A DNA stretch of 64,000 nt from Methylomonas koyamae (GTDB lineage: Bacteria; Pseudomonadota; Gammaproteobacteria; Methylococcales; Methylomonadaceae). The notes under the pieces were generated by a model. The model did not search any database. It was not told the DNA's origin and worked only from the letters and a program-made list of their open reading frames with translations. Made by a program: the position numbers and the translations under genes. The DNA lies in NCBI RefSeq assembly GCF_006483455.1, contig NZ_PPPU01000022.1, forward strand, positions 124,001 to 188,000, written 5' to 3'. Shown here piece after piece: positions 45,881 to 53,965 of the stretch (position 1 is the first letter of the stretch; each line of letters opens with the position of its first letter).

Positions 45881-46768
45881 TTATTTCAATTCGGCTAGTA
45901 ATTGTTCTACCATCCGGGCAGCTTGACTTAAGTAGCCCGAGCCGAACAAATTCAAGTGGTTGAGAATATGGTAGAGGTTGTACAAGGTTTTGCGGACTTT
46001 GTAGCCCGGATCCAAAGGGTAGTACGCTTGGTACGCCGAATAGAATTCTCGCCCGAAACCGCCAAACAATTCGGTCATGGCAATATCCGCTTCGCGGTCG
46101 CCGTAATAGCAGGCCGGATCGAACATTACCGGCTTCCCCTGGCTGTCGGCGGCAGCGTTGCCGCCCCATAAATCGCCATGTAATAGGGATGGTTGCGGTC
46201 GATAGCTGTCGAATAGGCTGTTTAGCCGTTCCTGAAGTTTTTCCCCCTGTTTTTGCAGTGTGCCGCGATGGCCATTCTCGGCGGCGAGTTGCAATTGCTT
46301 GCCCAGGCGCTGGTCGCGCCAAAATTCCATCCAGTCATGATGCCTCGGGTTGTATTGAGGAGTTGAGCCTATGGTGTTGTCGATGCTCCAGCCAAAGTAG
46401 GCTTGCGGTTGGAGGTGCATGCGGGCCAGTTGTTCGCCGAATAGTGCGGCAGCACCGGCTGACAAGGAGCGCAGTTCGATGTATTCCAAAACCAGGTAGG
46501 CGTATTGCTGATGCTGGCCATGGCAGACCACATTCGGGATGTGAACAGCGCCGATACCGGCCAATTCGGTCAAGCCGACGGCTTCGGCAGCAAACATGTC
46601 GGCCAATTCCGCTTGGTTAAGTTTGATAAACCAGTCGATACCCCGGCTTTGTAACCGATAAGCGGAATTGATGTCGCCGCCGCCGACGCTAGTCAGGCGA
46701 GCTTCGGCCAGATTTTGTCCGGTCGATTGCGCCAGATGCCGCATCAAGGGTTGCAATCGGTCCGACAT
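45881..46768 (-). CDS. Fructosamine/ketosamine-3-kinase family protein
   Basis: 295 residues of the YniA-type fructosamine kinase family, which phosphorylates sugar adducts on proteins so that they come off. Motifs: VGGGDINSAYRL (N-lobe loop), FIKLN, LLHGDLWGGNAA (catalytic Asp) and FDPACYYGDREADIAMTELFGGF. The stop lies 11 bp from nothing else; glnS begins 10 bp upstream, so it may be co-transcribed with glnS. Confidence 0.9.
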   Translation of the reverse strand: MSDRLQPLMRHLAQSTGQNLAEARLTSVGGGDINSAYRLQSRGIDWFIKLNQAELADMFAAEAVGLTELAGIGAVHIPNVVCHGQHQQYAYLVLEYIELRSLSAGAAALFGEQLARMHLQPQAYFGWSIDNTIGSTPQYNPRHHDWMEFWRDQRLGKQLQLAAENGHRGTLQKQGEKLQERLNSLFDSYRPQPSLLHGDLWGGNAAADSQGKPVMFDPACYYGDREADIAMTELFGGFGREFYSAYQAYYPLDPGYKVRKTLYNLYHILNHLNLFGSGYLSQAARMVEQLLAELK

Positions 46769-46778
46769 CGGCAGGCCC

Positions 46779-48443
46779 TTATTTTCCCCAGCTGTCGCGT
46801 AAGGTCACGGTACGATTGAATACCAATTTGCCGGCTTTGCTATCCAGGTCGTCCAGGTAGAAATATCCGGTGCGTTCGAATTGGTAGCGCGTGTCCGGTG
46901 CCGGCTTGGCTAAGCTGGCTTCCAGGCGGCAGTCGTTAAGGATTTCCAGTGAGTTGGGATTGATGCCGTCGAGGAAATTGTCCAACGTGTCCGGGTTGGG
47001 GTGGCTGAACAAGCGGTCGTATAAACGCAATTCCGCCGGGATGGAATGCGCCTCGGATACCCAATGGATGACGCCTTTGACTTTGCGGCCTTCAGGGTTT
47101 TTGCCCAAGGTTGCGGGGTCGTAGCTGCAAATGAGTTCGACAACATTGCCGGTAGCGTCTTTGATTACTTCATCGCATTTGATGACATAAGAGCCGCGCA
47201 AGCGCACTTCGCCGCCCGGCACCAGGCGTTTGAAATCTTTGGGCGGATTTTCCATGAAGTCGTCTTGTTCGATCAATATGACTTTGCCGAACGGAACTTC
47301 GCGACTACCCATTTCCGGTTTTTGCGGATGGTTGGCAATCTGGTAGGTTTCGGTTTTGCCGTCTTCCCAGTTGCTGATCGTCACTTTCAGCGGCCGCAAC
47401 ACCGCCATCGCGCGCGGTGCCCGCTCGTTCAAATCTTCGCGGATACAGTTTTCCAACACCCCCATCTCGATCCAGGAATCGTTTTTGGTCACGCCGATCC
47501 GTTCGCAGAAATCGCGAATCGCTTCCGGGGTGAAACCTGCGCGGCGTAGGCCGGAAATGGTCGGCATCCGCGGATCGTCCCAGCCGGAAACATGCTTCTC
47601 GGTGACCAATTGCAGCAGTTTACGCTTGCTGACGATGGTGTATTCCAATTGCAGGCGGGCGAATTCGATTTGTTGCGGATGGCAAGGTGTGTTCAATTTA
47701 TCCAACACCCAGTCGTACAAAGGTCGATGGTCTTCGAATTCCAAAGTACAGATCGAGTGGGTGATGCCTTCCAGCATATCCGACAAACAATGGGTGTAGT
47801 CGTACATCGGGTAGATGCACCATGCGTTCCCGGTGCGGTGGTGGTGTACCCGGCGGATGCGGTAGATCACCGGATCTCGCATGTTGATATTCGGTGACGC
47901 CATATCGATTTTGGCGCGCAGCACATATTGGCCGTCGCTGAACTCGCCGGCCCGCATGCGTTGGAATAAATCCAGGTTGTCATCGATGCTGCGGTTGCGA
48001 TCCGGGCTTTCTTTGCCCGGTTGAGTCAAGGTGCCGCGGTCCATGCGCATTTGTTCTGAACTGGAGCTGTCGACATAAGCGTCGCCTTGTTTAATCAACT
48101 GCACCGCGTAGTCGTAGAGCTGTTCAAAATAATCCGAGGCGTGGAATTTGCCGGCATATTTGAACCCAAGCCAAGCGACGTCGCGCTCGATCGACTCCAT
48201 GTACTCGACGCTTTCCTTTTCCGGATTGGTGTCGTCGAAGCGCAAATTACAGGTGCCTTTGTTTTCCAGTGCCAGAGTGAAATTCAGACAGATCGATTTG
48301 GCATGGCCGATATGCAGATAGCCGTTAGGCTCTGGCGGGAAGCGGGTGGCAACCTTGCCCTGGTTTTTGTTGGAAGCCAAGTCGGCGGCAATAATATGGC
48401 GAATGAAATTAGGCGCGGCGGTGCTGTTATCGTTGGCGGACAT
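46779..48443 (-). CDS. glnS: Glutaminyl-tRNA synthetase
   Basis: Class I synthetase charging tRNA-Gln. 554 residues, as in E. coli; [20 protein letters not shown] is the HIGH motif, and [11 protein letters not shown]-like sequence carries the KMSKS equivalent (IVSKRKL). C-terminal beta-barrel region ends [12 protein letters not shown]. The fructosamine kinase gene follows 10 bp downstream. Confidence 0.97.
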
Positions 48444-48609
48444 GTTCGGATGCGAGTTGAGGTTTTAGATTTTTTGCGAGAACGCTGATAAAAGCTAAGC
48501 GTCCGGTCATTTTAACGAGTTTGTCGTGAGCCCGTAAAGGCGAATGCAAACCGCGATAGAAGCTGGAAAATGGTTTATCTAACTGATATATAAAGAAATT
48601 GTTAAATTA

Positions 48610-48636
48610 TTAGCACTCTTGTTAAACGAGTGCTAG
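48610..48636. promoter_or_regulatory. CIRCE element (HrcA operator) upstream of rpoH
   Basis: TTAGCACTC and GAGTGCTAG are separated by exactly 9 bp, the CIRCE layout; only the last base differs from the consensus GAGTGCTAA. It lies 42 bp before the rpoH start codon. HrcA, stabilised by GroEL, represses through this element in many bacteria. Confidence 0.9.
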
Positions 48637-48639
48637 AAT
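48610..48639 (+). promoter_or_regulatory. Possible rpoH promoter overlapping CIRCE
   Basis: TAGAAT (48634-48639) is a 5-of-6 match to the -10 box and starts in the right arm of CIRCE. TTAGCA (48610-48615) is 18 bp upstream but is a weak -35. An alternative is TTGTTA with TTAAAC 17 bp apart (48599-48627). Either would be covered by bound HrcA. Confidence 0.4.
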
Positions 48640-48677
48640 TCGGACATGTCTAATTTTTCAGAAAAATCGAGGAAGAT

Positions 48678-49532
48678 ATGAGTAACAGCTTGGCTTTACC
48701 CATCAATTTGTCGGTTGGGACTTTTGATTCATACTTGAACCTGATTGCGCAGATGCCCAAACTCAGCGCCGAACAGGAGCAGGAACTGGCTTTACGTTAC
48801 CGCGATCGTGGTGATTTGGAAGCAGCGCGCGAATTGGTGATGACGAACCTGCGGTTTGTCGCCCACGTGGCGCGCGGGTACTCCGGATATGGTCTACCGA
48901 TGGCCGATATCGTGCAGGAAGGCAATATCGGCTTGATGAAAGCAGTCAAACGATTCGACCCCGACATGGGCGTACGTTTGGTGTCGTTCGCGGTCCATTG
49001 GATCAAAGCCGAAATCCACGAATATGTGATCCGGAACTGGCGTATCGTCAAAGTCGCCACAACCAAAGCGCAGCGTAAATTGTTTTTCAATCTACGTAAA
49101 TTCAAAAAGGAATTGAGCTATCTAACGCGGGAAGATGCCGAAGCGATTGCCGAAAATCTGGACGTAGACGTCAAAACCGTCTACGAGATGGAGCGGCGGC
49201 TGGACGGTCGCGACGTGGGGCTGGAGCCCACTGGCGACGATAGCGAAGATCAGGTGCAGGCCCCGATTGCCTACCTGGAACAACACGGCGCCGACCCGGC
49301 ATTAATGCTCGAAGCCAGCGACTGGGAAGGTCGCAAGGAAGAGCTGCTGATGGATGCCATGGCGGGGCTGGACGAAAGAAGTAGGGATATTCTGGCTAGC
49401 CGGTGGTTGGTCGAAGAAAAAGCTACATTGCACGAGCTTGCCGATCGGTATCAGGTATCTGCAGAACGGATTCGGCAGCTTGAGCAAAACGCGATGAAGA
49501 AACTCCGAGCGGCGGTGACATTAGAAGCTTGA
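48678..49532 (+). CDS. rpoH: RNA polymerase sigma-32 (heat shock)
   Basis: Directs transcription of chaperone and protease genes. 284 residues, the same as E. coli RpoH; region 2 GYSGYGLPMADIVQEGNIGLMKAVKRFDP, RpoH box QRKLFFNLR, region 4 LHELADRYQVSAERIRQLEQNAMKKLR. GAGGAAG lies a few bases before the ATG. A CIRCE element upstream suggests HrcA control in addition to the usual translational and stability control. Confidence 0.96.
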   Translation: MSNSLALPINLSVGTFDSYLNLIAQMPKLSAEQEQELALRYRDRGDLEAARELVMTNLRFVAHVARGYSGYGLPMADIVQEGNIGLMKAVKRFDPDMGVRLVSFAVHWIKAEIHEYVIRNWRIVKVATTKAQRKLFFNLRKFKKELSYLTREDAEAIAENLDVDVKTVYEMERRLDGRDVGLEPTGDDSEDQVQAPIAYLEQHGADPALMLEASDWEGRKEELLMDAMAGLDERSRDILASRWLVEEKATLHELADRYQVSAERIRQLEQNAMKKLRAAVTLEA

Positions 49533-49542
49533 TAAAAAACAT

Positions 49543-49570
49543 TTGTCATTTCTGAATATTTCAGTATAAT
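49543..49570 (+). promoter_or_regulatory. Sigma-70 promoter for tRNA-Leu(CAA)
   Basis: TTGTCA (49543-49548), 16-bp spacer, TATAAT (49565-49570), 12 nt before the tRNA. Confidence 0.75.
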
Positions 49571-49582
49571 GACGCTTTCTTT

Positions 49583-49667
49583 GCCGGGGTGGTGAAACTG
49601 GTAGACGCGCCGGATTCAAAATCCGGTTCCTTCGGGAGTGTCGGTTCGATTCCGACCCTCGGTACCA
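49583..49667 (+). tRNA. tRNA-Leu (anticodon CAA)
   Basis: 85 nt, class II fold. Acceptor GCCGGGG pairs with CCTCGGT (two G-U pairs), discriminator A, encoded CCA. Anticodon arm CCGGA-TTCAAAA-TCCGG gives CAA, reading UUG. T arm GGTTCGATTCC. Broken P4-type integrase genes start 169 bp downstream, which is how integration at a tRNA 3' end looks. Confidence 0.95.
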
Positions 49668-49700
49668 CCTACCTATCTAAGGTAGTCCAAAGAAATTTAA

Positions 49701-49735
49701 AAACCCGCGAGCCTCAAGGCTTAGCGGGTTTTTTA
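49701..49735 (+). terminator. Strong intrinsic terminator after tRNA-Leu(CAA)
   Basis: AAACCCGC and GCGGGTTT pair, with an inner AGCCT/AGGCT stem, followed by TTTATT. It lies 33 nt after the tRNA. Confidence 0.85.
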
Positions 49736-49835
49736 TTGTTCAACGAAATGTAGGGGGCATACACACCAAAAGTGTGTCCTTCATTGTGTCCTTTTCTATA
49801 ATGCTTCTCACCGAGGACACGATTGAAGACGCACA

Positions 49836-51084
49836 ATGGCGTTCCATCTCAATAAAGACACGGTTTACAGGGCGGCAAAGCCTCGCGATAAAGAATGCTT
49901 TATCAACGAAGGGGAGGGCTTTATCTGGTCGTCGGAAAAAACGGCACCGAAATATGGAAGTTCATCTTCACCTTCGAAGGGAAGCGAAAAACTTTTGTTT
50001 GGCGTGCATCCGGACACCACGTTGGAAAATGTCAGGCGCAAAGCTGAAGAAGCCCGAAACAATTTTGCCGACGGCATCGATCCAAGCGAAATCAGAAAGC
50101 AATCCAGGGCTGAAATTGCCCAAGTCGCCGAAAATCAACCCGGCTCGAAGCCGGCCTGCCTATCGCCAACAGCTTCGATCACATCACCCGACAGTGGCTC
50201 GAATCGTCGGCGCATACCGTGCGCGATATTACTCACCAAAAGAAAATCCGCCGCTTCGATCTCTACGTGTTTCCGGAAATTGGCCAAAAGCCGATCGGGG
50301 AAGTTAAATCGCCCGAAGTCTTTGCCGTGATCCGACCACTGATAATTAAAAAAAACTGGAAACTGCTCACAGGGTACGTGCCGACATCAGCACCGTTTAC
50401 GCATCCGCCATCGCCCATGGTTTTGCCGACTACGATCCGGCCCAAGCGGTTACTGCTAAAATCCCGGCGCAAAAGGCGAAGCACAACGCCGCGCTTACCG
50501 AGCCTAAAGAAGTGGGCCAGTTACTGCGGGACATCGCGCACTACAAAGGCGCATTCGTGGTGCAATCCGCGCTAAAGCTATCGCCTTACCTTTTTCAGCG
50601 GCCGGGAGAAATTCGGCAAATGGAATGGAAAGATGTCGATCTGGCGGCAAAGGAATGGCGTTACCTCGTCACTAAAACCGAAACGCTACACATTGTTCTG
50701 TTATCGCTGCAAGCGGTCGAAATTTTGGAAACCATCAAACCGTTAACCGGGGCCGGCCGATACGTTTTCCCGTCCAGCGGCGGCGACGGCCGGCCGATGT
50801 CCGACGGAACCATTCGCACCGCGCTGAAAACCCTTGGTTACGAAAGCGACCAAATGAGCGCCCACGGTTTTAGAACGACGGCGTCAACCTTACTCAACGA
50901 ACAAGGCTGGTCGCCTGATGCCATCGAGCGGCAGCTATGCCACATGCCGAAAGACCAAGTCAGAGCCGCCTGTAATCGGGCGCAATATCTGGACGAACGC
51001 CGGCGGATGATGCAGGCTTGCGCGGATTATCTTGACGCGCTACGGGACAGGGCGACGGTTATCCAATTTTCGCTTCAGGCTTAG
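49836..51084 (+). pseudogene. Frameshifted tyrosine integrase (P4 type, DUF4102 N-terminus)
   Basis: The reading passes through frames at least four times. LNKDTVYRAAKPRDK, then LYLVVGKNGTEIWKF in another frame (shift near 49918), GVHPDTTLENVRRKAEEA (shift near 49993), SFDHITRQWLESSAHTVRDI (shift near 50130), and from about 50360 ISTVYASAIAHGFADYDPAQ onward to the stop. The C-terminal part keeps the catalytic set: Arg in QRPGEIRQMEW, HGFRTTAS, a later His, and Tyr in RAQYLDERRRMMQ. So the protein is recognisable but cannot be made whole. It points away from tRNA-Leu(CAA), the usual order tRNA then integrase. Confidence 0.85.
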
Positions 51085-51146
51085 TTTGTGCTGAAGTTTT
51101 TCGGGGTGTTGAAATCGTTTATTGTCTGCCGATAGGGAAGGGCAAA

Positions 51147-51350
51147 ATGACGATGCACGGCTTTCGAGCCATGGCCAGAACCATCCTCGACGAAGTGTTA
51201 GGCGTGCGTCCGGACTTTATCGAACACCAGCTCGCCCACGCGGTCCGAGATCCCAACGGCCGTGCTTACAACAGGACAGCGCATTTACCGGAACGGCACA
51301 AGATGATGCAGCACTGGGCGGATTATTTGGATGGGCTAACAGGTTGGTGA
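51147..51350 (+). pseudogene. Integrase C-terminal fragment
   Basis: 67 codons with MHGFRAMARTILDEVL, HQLAHAVRDPNGRAYNRTAH and ERHKMMQHWADYLDGL, the last catalytic box (His, Arg, His, Tyr) of a second integrase. It lacks everything upstream of the HxxR box. Its end runs into the MITE-like element. Confidence 0.85.
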
Positions 51351-51467
51351 AAAACTCTTTTTGGCTTTGAATGACTCTATATTTAGTGACGATTAAGCCG
51401 CTTTCCTACTAAATGTTGGTTCGATTGAGCAAAATTAGCGTCTCAAATATGGTTTTTCACCAACCTG
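51340..51467. mobile_element. 128-bp MITE-like element with 16-bp terminal inverted repeats
   Basis: CAGGTTGGTGAAAAAC (51340-51355) and its perfect complement GTTTTTCACCAACCTG (51452-51467) bound a 128-bp non-coding segment. CTAA directly precedes and directly follows the element (51336-51339, 51468-51471), a 4-bp target duplication of the YTAR kind made by IS5-family transposases. It carries no transposase, so it would have needed one in trans. It sits between two integrase fragments. Confidence 0.75.
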
Positions 51468-51924
51468 CTAAACGACGGTTCTGGATTGTATTTGCTGGTT
51501 AAGACCAACGGCGCCAAATGGTGGCGATTCGATTATTCCATCGACGTCCGCCGAAAAACGATTTCTCTTGGCGTTTATCCCTCAACCAGCTTAACCGATG
51601 CCAGGCGTAAAACGGATAAGCCCGTGCGCCTGTGGTCAACGGCAGCGATTCCAGCAAAATTCGAAAGCCCATAACCCCCCCAAACAGGGGTGTTAGAACA
51701 GGAAAGGCACCTCGATGCCGGCCTGTGTTGATTAACAGCTTCAATATGTCACCCGAGAATGGCTGGCGTCGACCGCTCACACTGTCCGAGACATTACTCA
51801 GCAAAAGAAACAGCGCCGCTTCGAGTTATACGTCTTTCCGGCGATCGGGCAATTGCCGATTGGCGATGTTAAATCGCCAGATGTTTTCACCATCGTCCAG
51901 CCGCTGATTATCAAAAACCAATGA
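51468..51924 (+). pseudogene. Third integrase remnant (N-terminal and core-binding pieces)
   Basis: Begins in frame LNDGSGLYLLVKTNGAKWWRF and RKTISLGVYPSTSLTDARRK, the DUF4102 head of a P4-type integrase, then loses frame. A later stretch reads VTREWLASTAHTVRDITQQ and FELYVFPAIGQLPIGDVKSPDVF before TGA at 51922. That second part matches the equivalent part of the integrase at 49.8-51.1 kb (RQWLESSAHTVRDITHQ). No catalytic domain remains. Confidence 0.8.
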
Positions 51925-52036
51925 GACCGCGCGCCGCGAGTGACGGCGGAGAAAGCCGCTAGTTGATAAGTCGATAAAATACGGTAAAAGTGGAGTAGAG
52001 TATTTTGCGAATAAGAAACTAACGAGGGCGAAGGTC

Positions 52037-53965
52037 ATGATAGATAAGCAAAAAATCGGCGAGATTTACCGGCTTGCGGTCGAATGGCTGAATGTGGCCT
52101 GGGCTTGGCTACAGGGGCGTTGGCGCGCTTTTAATGCCAAAAGCGAGGATGGCGCCGGCCAATCCGGTAGCGACGCGCCGAAGCAATCGCGATTCTGGTT
52201 GTATCTGCTTTTAGGTATTTTCCTGTTGTCGATTTTTGCCGGCGGTGAACGTATCCAGGGTCGGGAAATCCCGTATAGCCAGTTCATCAATCTGGTCAAT
52301 GAAGACAAAGTGGAAAATGCGGTCGTGACCCAGCGCTTCATTAACGGCACCTTGAAGCAGGAAGACCAAAAGATCGGCAAGCAATTTTTCACGATACCGT
52401 TGTGGGACGAGTCGCTGGTCAAAAACCTGCAGGCGCATAAGGTGGAATATGTGGTCAGGAGCGGCGACAACTGGGCCAGCAGCTTGTTGTTCAATTGGAT
52501 CATTCCAATCGCGATTTTTGCCGGCATCTGGATGTGGCTGTTACCGAAAATGGCCGGTGGAGGCGGTCGCGGTTTTCTGAATCTGGGCAACAAAATGCGC
52601 ATCCAGCAGGAAACCTCGAAAACTACGTTCGACGATGTAGCCGGCGCCGATAGCGCCAAACAGGAACTTAAGGAAACCATCGAATTTTTAAAAGCGCCGG
52701 AAAAATTGCAAAAGCTGGGTGGGCGGATGCCGAAAGGCGTATTACTGGTCGGCTCGCCGGGTACCGGGAAAACCTTGCTGGCGCGGGCCGTTTCCGGCGA
52801 GGCCGGCGTGCCGTTCTTCAATATCAGCGCTTCCGAGTTTATCGAATTATTCGTCGGTGTCGGCGCGGCGCGGGTGCGGGACTTGTTCGAACAGGCCCGG
52901 CAGAAAGCCCCTTGCATCATTTTCATCGACGAACTGGATGCGATCGGCCGTTCTCGCGGCGGCCCGGTGGTGATGGGCGGCAACGACGAACGCGAGCAAA
53001 CCTTGAACCAATTATTGACCGAAATGGACGGTTTCGACGCCACTTCCGGCGTTGTGGTGATGGCAGCGACCAATCGGCCGGAAATTCTGGACAAGGCCTT
53101 GTTGCGCGCCGGCCGTTTCGACCGGCAAATCGTGGTCGACAAGCCCGATCAACTGGATCGGGTGGCAATCCTGAAATTGCACACTAAAGGCATGCAACTG
53201 GACAAAGACGTCGATCTGACCATCGTTGCCAAGCGCACCCCCGGTTTCGTTGGTGCCGATCTATCCAATATTGCCAACGAGGCGGCGATCCTGGCCGCTC
53301 GGGCCGGCCGCGACACCGTAAACATGGCCGATTTCGAAGCGGCGATCGACCGGGTTATGGCCGGGCCGGAAAAGAAAAACCGTGTGCTCGGCCCGGAGGA
53401 AAAACGCCGGGTGGCTTACCACGAAGCCGGCCATGCTTTGGTTGCCGAGAACGTGCCGACCGGCCAGCCGGTGCACAAAATCTCGATCATTCCGCGCGGC
53501 GTATCAGCGCTGGGATTTACTTTGCAGCTGCCGGTCGAAGAAAAATACCTGTCCACCGAAGCGGAACTGAAAGACCAAATCGCCATACTGCTGGCCGGAA
53601 GGGTGGCCGAGCAGCTGGCGTTGCAGAGCGTTTCCACCGGCGCCCAAAACGACCTGGAAAAAGCCAGCGAAATTGCCCGTAACATGGTGTGTTATTTAGG
53701 CATGAGTAAAAAGCTGGGGCCGTTGATTTACGGCCAACGCCAGCAGCTGCAGTTTTTGGCCGGAGACGTTACCGAACAGCGTAACTACAGCGAAGAAACC
53801 GCGCGGGTGGTCGATGCCGAAGTTCGCGAGCTGGTCGAAGATGCCGAACGCCGGGCCCACAAAATTCTGACCAGTAAGCGTGGCCAGTTGGATCGGCTCG
53901 CCGAGTTGTTGCAAGACCGGGAAGTAATACAGCGAGAAGAGATGTTGGAGTTGATCGGCGCGTAG
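52037..53965 (+). CDS. ftsH: FtsH family ATP-dependent zinc metalloprotease with extended N-terminus
   Basis: Membrane-bound AAA protease. 642 residues: about 50 polar residues ahead of the first span (52-67), periplasmic loop, second span (about 152-170), Walker A GSPGTGKT (239-246; usually GPPGTGKT), Walker [13 protein letters not shown], second region of homology [20 protein letters not shown], zinc site H462-E-A-G-H466. Canonical FtsH has almost nothing before its first span. It is not next to rlmE or folP and lies just beyond integrase debris, so it is probably a second copy. AGGGCGAAGG before the ATG serves as ribosome site. Confidence 0.93.

Follow-up and report, generated by a model that had tools for sequence, protein, structure and literature searches.

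The heat-shock sigma factor gene rpoH of this Methylomonas genome is preceded by a near-perfect CIRCE element, and both halves of a predicted sigma-70 promoter lie in the arms of that element. Very probably this element functions as the operator through which HrcA, itself governed by GroEL, acts on the rpoH promoter. Sequence, position, conservation, co-occurrence with hrcA and contrast with groES and hrcA sites were observed directly; HrcA binding, repression, the GroEL signal, promoter activity and the use of sigma-E are inferred. The stretch of DNA analyzed (64 kb) is referred to as the window, and coordinates are those of the window.

The CIRCE element and rpoH

The dyad at 48610–48636 (+) reads TTAGCACTC-TTGTTAAAC-GAGTGCTAG, with arms at 48610–48618 and 48628–48636 and a spacer of 9 bases, and was annotated as a predicted CIRCE (HrcA operator). 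It differs by 1 mismatch from the CIRCE consensus, the inverted repeat TTAGCACTC-N9-GAGTGCTAA, and is the sole match in the 64 kb window at ≤3 mismatches; 0/100 dinucleotide shuffles of the window contained a match. The preliminary description, which had placed here a dyad one base off consensus overlapping a -10-like TAGAAT, gave coordinates and reading correctly, and TAGAAT lies at 48634–48639. The dyad is a genuine observation. Its one departure from consensus might suggest a chance or vestigial repeat, a reading whose probability is practically nil given the shuffles, the conservation in the genus and class samples described below and the presence of hrcA; a chance origin is already refuted.

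The dyad ends 41 bases before the start codon of rpoH (48678–49532, +), which encodes heat-shock sigma factor sigma-32 (284 amino acids). The product matched TIGR02392 at 395.5 bits (cut-off 323.1), an equivalog-level assignment that bears out the earlier naming of the gene 3′ of the dyad. Five matches to this family were found in the genome, and only the product of 48678–49532 passed the cut-off; a second rpoH was considered and rejected, no other match lying above it. The nearest named RpoH, among the best 80 of 592 confirmed loci, belongs to a Methylomonas assembly (82% identity). A ribosome-binding-site-like GAGG was identified by eye at 48669–48672 (+), 5 bases 5′ of the start codon. The divergent neighbor is glnS (46779–48443, −; TIGR00440, 781 bits).

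A tRNA gene lies 3′ of rpoH (Rfam, 49583–49664). Short frames between it and ftsH (region 49583–51084) resemble, by eye, a disrupted integrase, which would suggest that an integrated element has degenerated at this place. The ftsH gene (52037–53965; TIGR01241, 771 bits) is located ∼2.5 kb beyond rpoH; FtsH is the protease that degrades sigma-32 in E. coli.

HrcA and its predicted regulon

The genome contains a single copy of hrcA (PF01628, 225.2 bits, contig C20), and the HrcA DNA-binding domain was also detected (22.8 bits, cut-off 21). At ≤3 mismatches, a threshold that more degenerate sites escape, the genome-wide search returned three CIRCE-like sites, each found on both strands, while the reversed pattern had no match in the whole genome at the same threshold. 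A perfect CIRCE precedes groES (Cpn10 domain), a site with 2 mismatches precedes hrcA, behind which lie genes for GrpE, Hsp70 (DnaK) and DnaJ, and the third precedes rpoH. Because CIRCE-like sites precede these three, the predicted HrcA regulon comprises groES (with groEL presumed behind it), the hrcA-dnaK operon and rpoH. Thus, the genome search proposed in the preliminary description yielded one hrcA and further CIRCE copies at groES and the hrcA operon. The genome also encodes RpoE (sigma-E; 313 bits).

A predicted housekeeping promoter within the operator

A promoter scan identified TTAGCA-18-TAGAAT (9/12, with TG ahead of the -10), a predicted sigma-70 promoter of the extended -10 type. 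The -35-like TTAGCA (48610–48615, +), a weak match (4/6), lies inside the left arm, 18 bases 5′ of the -10, and the extended -10-like TGCTAGAAT (48631–48639, +) overlaps the right arm, which itself supplies the TGN. Transcription is predicted to start at ∼48646. Within the scanned region (48440–48720) there were also two equal-scoring matches on the minus strand, giving 3 in total versus 0.5 in shuffles.

The same arrangement was found at rpoH sites of the genus and class samples. With controls picked by the exact CIRCE pattern and rpoH sites allowed 3 mismatches, TGNTANNNT was present at the right-arm place in 33/33 genus sites, 53/58 class rpoH sites and 5/37 groES or hrcA sites, and a TANNNT hexamer overlapped the right arm in 53/58 class rpoH sites versus 5/37 controls. 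In the class rpoH sites the left arm supplied TTAGCA (39/58) or TTGGCA (13/58), 18 bases upstream of the -10. The controls were 29 groES and 8 hrcA sites, 3 of 40 loci (L275, L305, L306) having been dropped as no groES or hrcA was found. At the groES sites, a TTGAC-like -35 and a TATTA-like -10 were seen by eye immediately 5′ of CIRCE.

The preliminary description had also held that the change from A to G in the dyad builds the -10. This was rejected: since TAGAAT and TAAAAT each differ from TATAAT by one base, the change did not create the hexamer, and among class rpoH sites TAAAAT is the commonest form (23/58, compared with 2/58 for TAGAAT).

The position of the predicted start bears on whether the repeat acts instead as an RNA hairpin in the rpoH leader, serving as a thermosensor or stability element. 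A sigma-E-type start would fall inside the repeat and could allow its partial transcription, whereas the predicted sigma-70 start leaves it untranscribed. Moreover, the sequence is held near the HrcA consensus, beyond what mere pairing asks, the site is absent in 22/25 hrcA-negative genomes, and Rfam detected nothing but the tRNA in 46000–52500. An RNA element is very improbable and was rejected on the Rfam result and the near-exact match of the repeat to the HrcA consensus; a DNA operator for HrcA is preferred.

Conservation within the genus

The genus sample comprised 37 genomes, 34 of which had an rpoH match; G034, in which the match begins at a contig end, was omitted, leaving 33 readable leaders, the window's included. 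CIRCE-like sites at ≤2 mismatches were present in 37/37 genomes, mostly three apiece. The comparison of rpoH leaders in relatives, also proposed earlier, showed the dyad before rpoH in 33/33 readable leaders. AAT follows the dyad directly in 33/33, and the final dyad base is G in 28/33, the form typical of the genus, and A in 5/33, giving TAGAAT or TAAAAT. Absence of hrcA and lack of conservation of the dyad had been named in the preliminary description as findings that would count against it; both were examined and neither was observed.

Association with hrcA across the class

The class sample contained one genome per family of the class, which was taken to be Gammaproteobacteria from the named relatives. 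Among 94 genomes searched, 85 had rpoH at 1e-85 or better, the window's own genome included, and the 84 other genomes (85 leaders) were scored for CIRCE with ≤3 mismatches allowed. CIRCE preceded rpoH in 55/59 hrcA-positive versus 3/25 hrcA-negative genomes (Fisher p about 3e-13, kinship ignored); reversed leaders gave 0/85 at ≤3 mismatches (lowest 4). The exceptions were four hrcA-positive genomes without the rpoH site (G047, G060, G070, G098) and three genomes with the site and no hrcA match (G050, G101, G117).

Named loci were the best 80 of 592 confirmed. For the hrcA comparison 50 of the 80 were used; the 30 left out were chiefly further Halomonas-, Psychrobacter-, Acinetobacter-, Pseudomonas-, Idiomarina- and Pseudoalteromonas-type loci, two of which were CIRCE-positive (L057, L061). 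In these 50 of the best 80 loci the site was present in 25/26 hrcA-positive versus 3/24 hrcA-negative genomes (Fisher tests again ignore kinship), the exceptions being L068, hrcA-positive without the site, and L005, L009 and L066, with the site and no hrcA match. Carriers include Methylobacter, Crenothrix, Methyloglobulus, Haliea, Thiogranum, Thiohalobacter, Pleionea, Pseudoalteromonas and tubeworm endosymbionts; the site is absent from the fetched Halomonas, Pseudomonas, Acinetobacter, Psychrobacter, Marinobacter and Shewanella rpoH loci. When the joint loss of hrcA and CIRCE was tested with independent pairs on the RpoH tree, the result ran in the expected direction (3–4 pairs same, 0–1 opposite) and, with so few pairs, fell short of significance (median p 0.125).

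Lying between divergent genes, the operator might serve glnS (start 48443, −) rather than rpoH, 166 bases separating the glnS start codon from the dyad. However, glnS is the longest upstream frame at 1/80 named rpoH loci (best 80 of 592), namely that of the nearest relative (L005). At 21/30 named CIRCE-positive loci the upstream frame belongs to a 49-member cluster that is co-directional with rpoH, of which the two members tested are FtsX, and the -10-like hexamer in the window is oriented toward rpoH, not glnS. Control of glnS is extremely improbable, and glnS was rejected as the CIRCE target: the neighbor varies and the site remains with rpoH.

With rpoH as the target, HrcA could still bind with little effect, rpoH output coming mainly from other promoters and from sigma-32 translation and turnover. 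Control of sigma-32 in E. coli is mostly post-transcriptional, a precedent for such an arrangement, and 4/59 hrcA-positive families are without the site. Against this, retention in 55/59 hrcA-positive families and 33/33 genus leaders implies a fitness cost of loss, and we consider a minor effect unlikely.

These genome comparisons give good support to direct control of rpoH by HrcA, because the predicted operator tracks the presence of hrcA and stays with rpoH as the upstream neighbor changes. The earlier proposal that HrcA stands over the sigma-32 gene is therefore favored as regards direct control. The view that this placement of CIRCE is unusual was not sustained: it is the common state in the hrcA-keeping families sampled and has a precedent in Geobacter sulfurreducens (available part of PMC545781).

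Individual loci showed further variation. G066 carries two rpoH genes (L139, L181), with CIRCE in front of one only. In L009, a sponge symbiont of the Methylococcales with no hrcA match, the CIRCE before rpoH has 2 mismatches, one within the GAGTGC core, and seems to be degenerating now that the repressor is gone. Two Pseudoalteromonas loci (L047, L050; genomes G158, G161) have a perfect CIRCE at rpoH, while each genome has a single HrcA match, a highly divergent one (37.2 and 35.7 bits); a fast-evolving HrcA that retains its operator is possible. L024 and L084 have a tandem pair of CIRCE elements before rpoH, the upstream copy being weaker. In the hrcA-positive G098 (L303–L306), rpoH is without CIRCE and CIRCE elements lie near Hsp20 and Clp_N (clpB-like) genes as well as hrcA and groES, as if HrcA took over other heat-shock genes directly.

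A sigma-E-like promoter at the same site

The sigma-E consensus consists of GGAACTT, 15–17 bases and TCNNA. A GAAC core is located 8–10 bases before CIRCE in 37/58 class rpoH sites versus 1/37 controls, at exactly 9 bases in 30/58; shuffled upstream stretches averaged 0.5, with a maximum of 4. The third spacer base (CIRCE position 12) is A in 43/58 class sites, 6/37 controls and 5/33 genus leaders, and in 35/37 sites with the GAAC core this A completes TCNNA. The full pattern is present in 34/58 CIRCE-positive class leaders (shuffled mean 0.4, maximum 3); the other 24 are without it. Together, these features resemble a sigma-E promoter whose spacer is mostly 16 bases long and whose -10 would be formed by the operator.

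The composite pattern GAACTT-N8-10-CIRCE was searched in 275 class genomes, a sample that overlaps the one-per-family set. It occurred in 49/275, with one match each, and the reversed pattern gave 0 matches in the same genomes. Of 30 composite-pattern loci that were read, 29 precede rpoH; at the remaining locus (L344), which had no RpoH match, merely ∼275 bases of contig extend past the site. Position 12 is A in 43/49 matches, and one of the 49 (G098) precedes a Clp_N (clpB-like) gene. The sigma-E pattern also lies before rpoH at loci without CIRCE, in 20/50 named and 3/27 class leaders (shuffled means 0.4 and 0.3). Because it persists there, the operator in part of the class looks like a layer upon an independent sigma-E promoter.

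The window itself reads AGAAATT-16-TCTTG, outside the sigma-E pattern. AGAAATT (48594–48600, +), relic-like, agrees at 5/7 positions with the sigma-E -35 GGAACTT and stands 9 bases ahead of CIRCE, at the conserved position; TCTTG (48617–48621, +), at the sigma-E -10 place, is missing the A of the TCNNA found in 43/58 class sites. To judge from these motifs, the sigma-E promoter of the window looks decayed and the housekeeping form retained. The GAAC core is kept in 2/33 genus leaders. Within the genus, G004 (L223) has TGAACTT-16-TCTTA and G002 (L210) has GGAAATT at the -35 place; the full composite pattern is also found in G326 (same family) and G217 (same order).

Proposed mechanism

The most likely mechanism is repression of rpoH transcription by HrcA, with GroEL adjusting HrcA activity. 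The -35-like TTAGCA and the extended -10 of the putative sigma-70 promoter both lie in the operator arms, so bound HrcA would exclude RNA polymerase. Free GroEL would keep HrcA active and rpoH transcription low. When GroEL is occupied by misfolded protein, or HrcA is unfolded by heat, groES(L), hrcA-grpE-dnaK-dnaJ and rpoH would be released jointly, and the additional sigma-32 would drive expression of the wider heat-shock set; recovery of GroEL would restore HrcA and close rpoH again. The role of GroEL as signal is proposed by analogy with other bacteria: the available part of PMC8533110 describes HrcA binding strengthened by GroE in Campylobacter and cites Bacillus and Chlamydia likewise. 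In families with the sigma-E form (34/58 leaders), envelope and cytoplasmic stress would converge on one site.

On balance we favor, with some reserve, a broader account for the hrcA-keeping Gammaproteobacteria. In these, rpoH would typically be a joint target of HrcA and sigma-E through one interleaved site of ∼46 bases, in which the sigma-E -10 is built from left arm and spacer and the housekeeping extended -10 from the right arm. HrcA and sigma-32 would make up one cascade in most such families, the stand-alone sigma-32 system of E. coli would be derived after loss of hrcA, and Methylomonas would have dropped the sigma-E input while keeping HrcA and the housekeeping promoter.

Repression by HrcA and activation by sigma-32 are usually described as alternative heat-shock strategies. 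Should most hrcA-bearing families of the class, to which E. coli also belongs, have HrcA on the sigma-32 gene, the two systems are one cascade, sigma-32 supply would be set by the availability of GroEL, and the circuit of E. coli may be a reduced form of it. The interleaved sigma-E promoter would turn the site into a compact gate with two inputs, cytoplasmic stress and envelope stress.

Comparison with known systems

A partial literature search, with the key survey of Permina and Gelfand 2003 outside it, found no published report of a class-wide link between hrcA and CIRCE at rpoH or of overlap between sigma-E promoters and CIRCE. By its title that survey reportedly covers the same regulons in the same class, and it may list rpoH sites; RegPrecise and the 2007 Geobacter RpoH study of Ueki and Lovley are said to be places that may hold more. 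In the sections available, PMC3989490 and PMC10696704 placed no CIRCE before rpoH, so that among these two and PMC545781 only the last does, and the available sections of PMC3224663, PMC10490939 and PMC1978210 added nothing on sigma-E/CIRCE or rpoH-CIRCE.

Rodionov et al. (2004; PMC545781, Table 8) predicted a CIRCE before rpoH of Geobacter sulfurreducens, at position -51 relative to the start codon. The likeness is close, as the same operator precedes rpoH and CIRCE is also present at groESL and hrcA-grpE-dnaK-dnaJ. That case is a computational prediction for one species of another group, and the available part of the paper does not describe promoter overlap. Here, by contrast, the arrangement occurs in another class, is genus-wide and frequent in the class sample, and the -10 and often a putative sigma-E promoter are interleaved with the operator. 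Taken alone, the window would be a further case of a known CIRCE-rpoH arrangement; the interleaved promoters and the class pattern would make it a variant that the literature searched does not report.

The classical HrcA/CIRCE system at groESL and hrcA-grpE-dnaK-dnaJ has the same operator and repressor, and both targets are present here, with groEL presumed. The promoters differ in placement: at groES the -35/-10 pair, judged by eye, lies just before CIRCE, whereas the -10 of rpoH overlaps the operator.

In Salmonella, rpoH is among the sigma-E targets (available part of PMC4577112), and a promoter of the same kind as the enteric sigma-E rpoH promoter is predicted in 34/58 CIRCE-positive class leaders. 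The enteric system differs in having no HrcA layer, since the HrcA family had no match in the E. coli control genome. In the window, the sigma-E part looks decayed.
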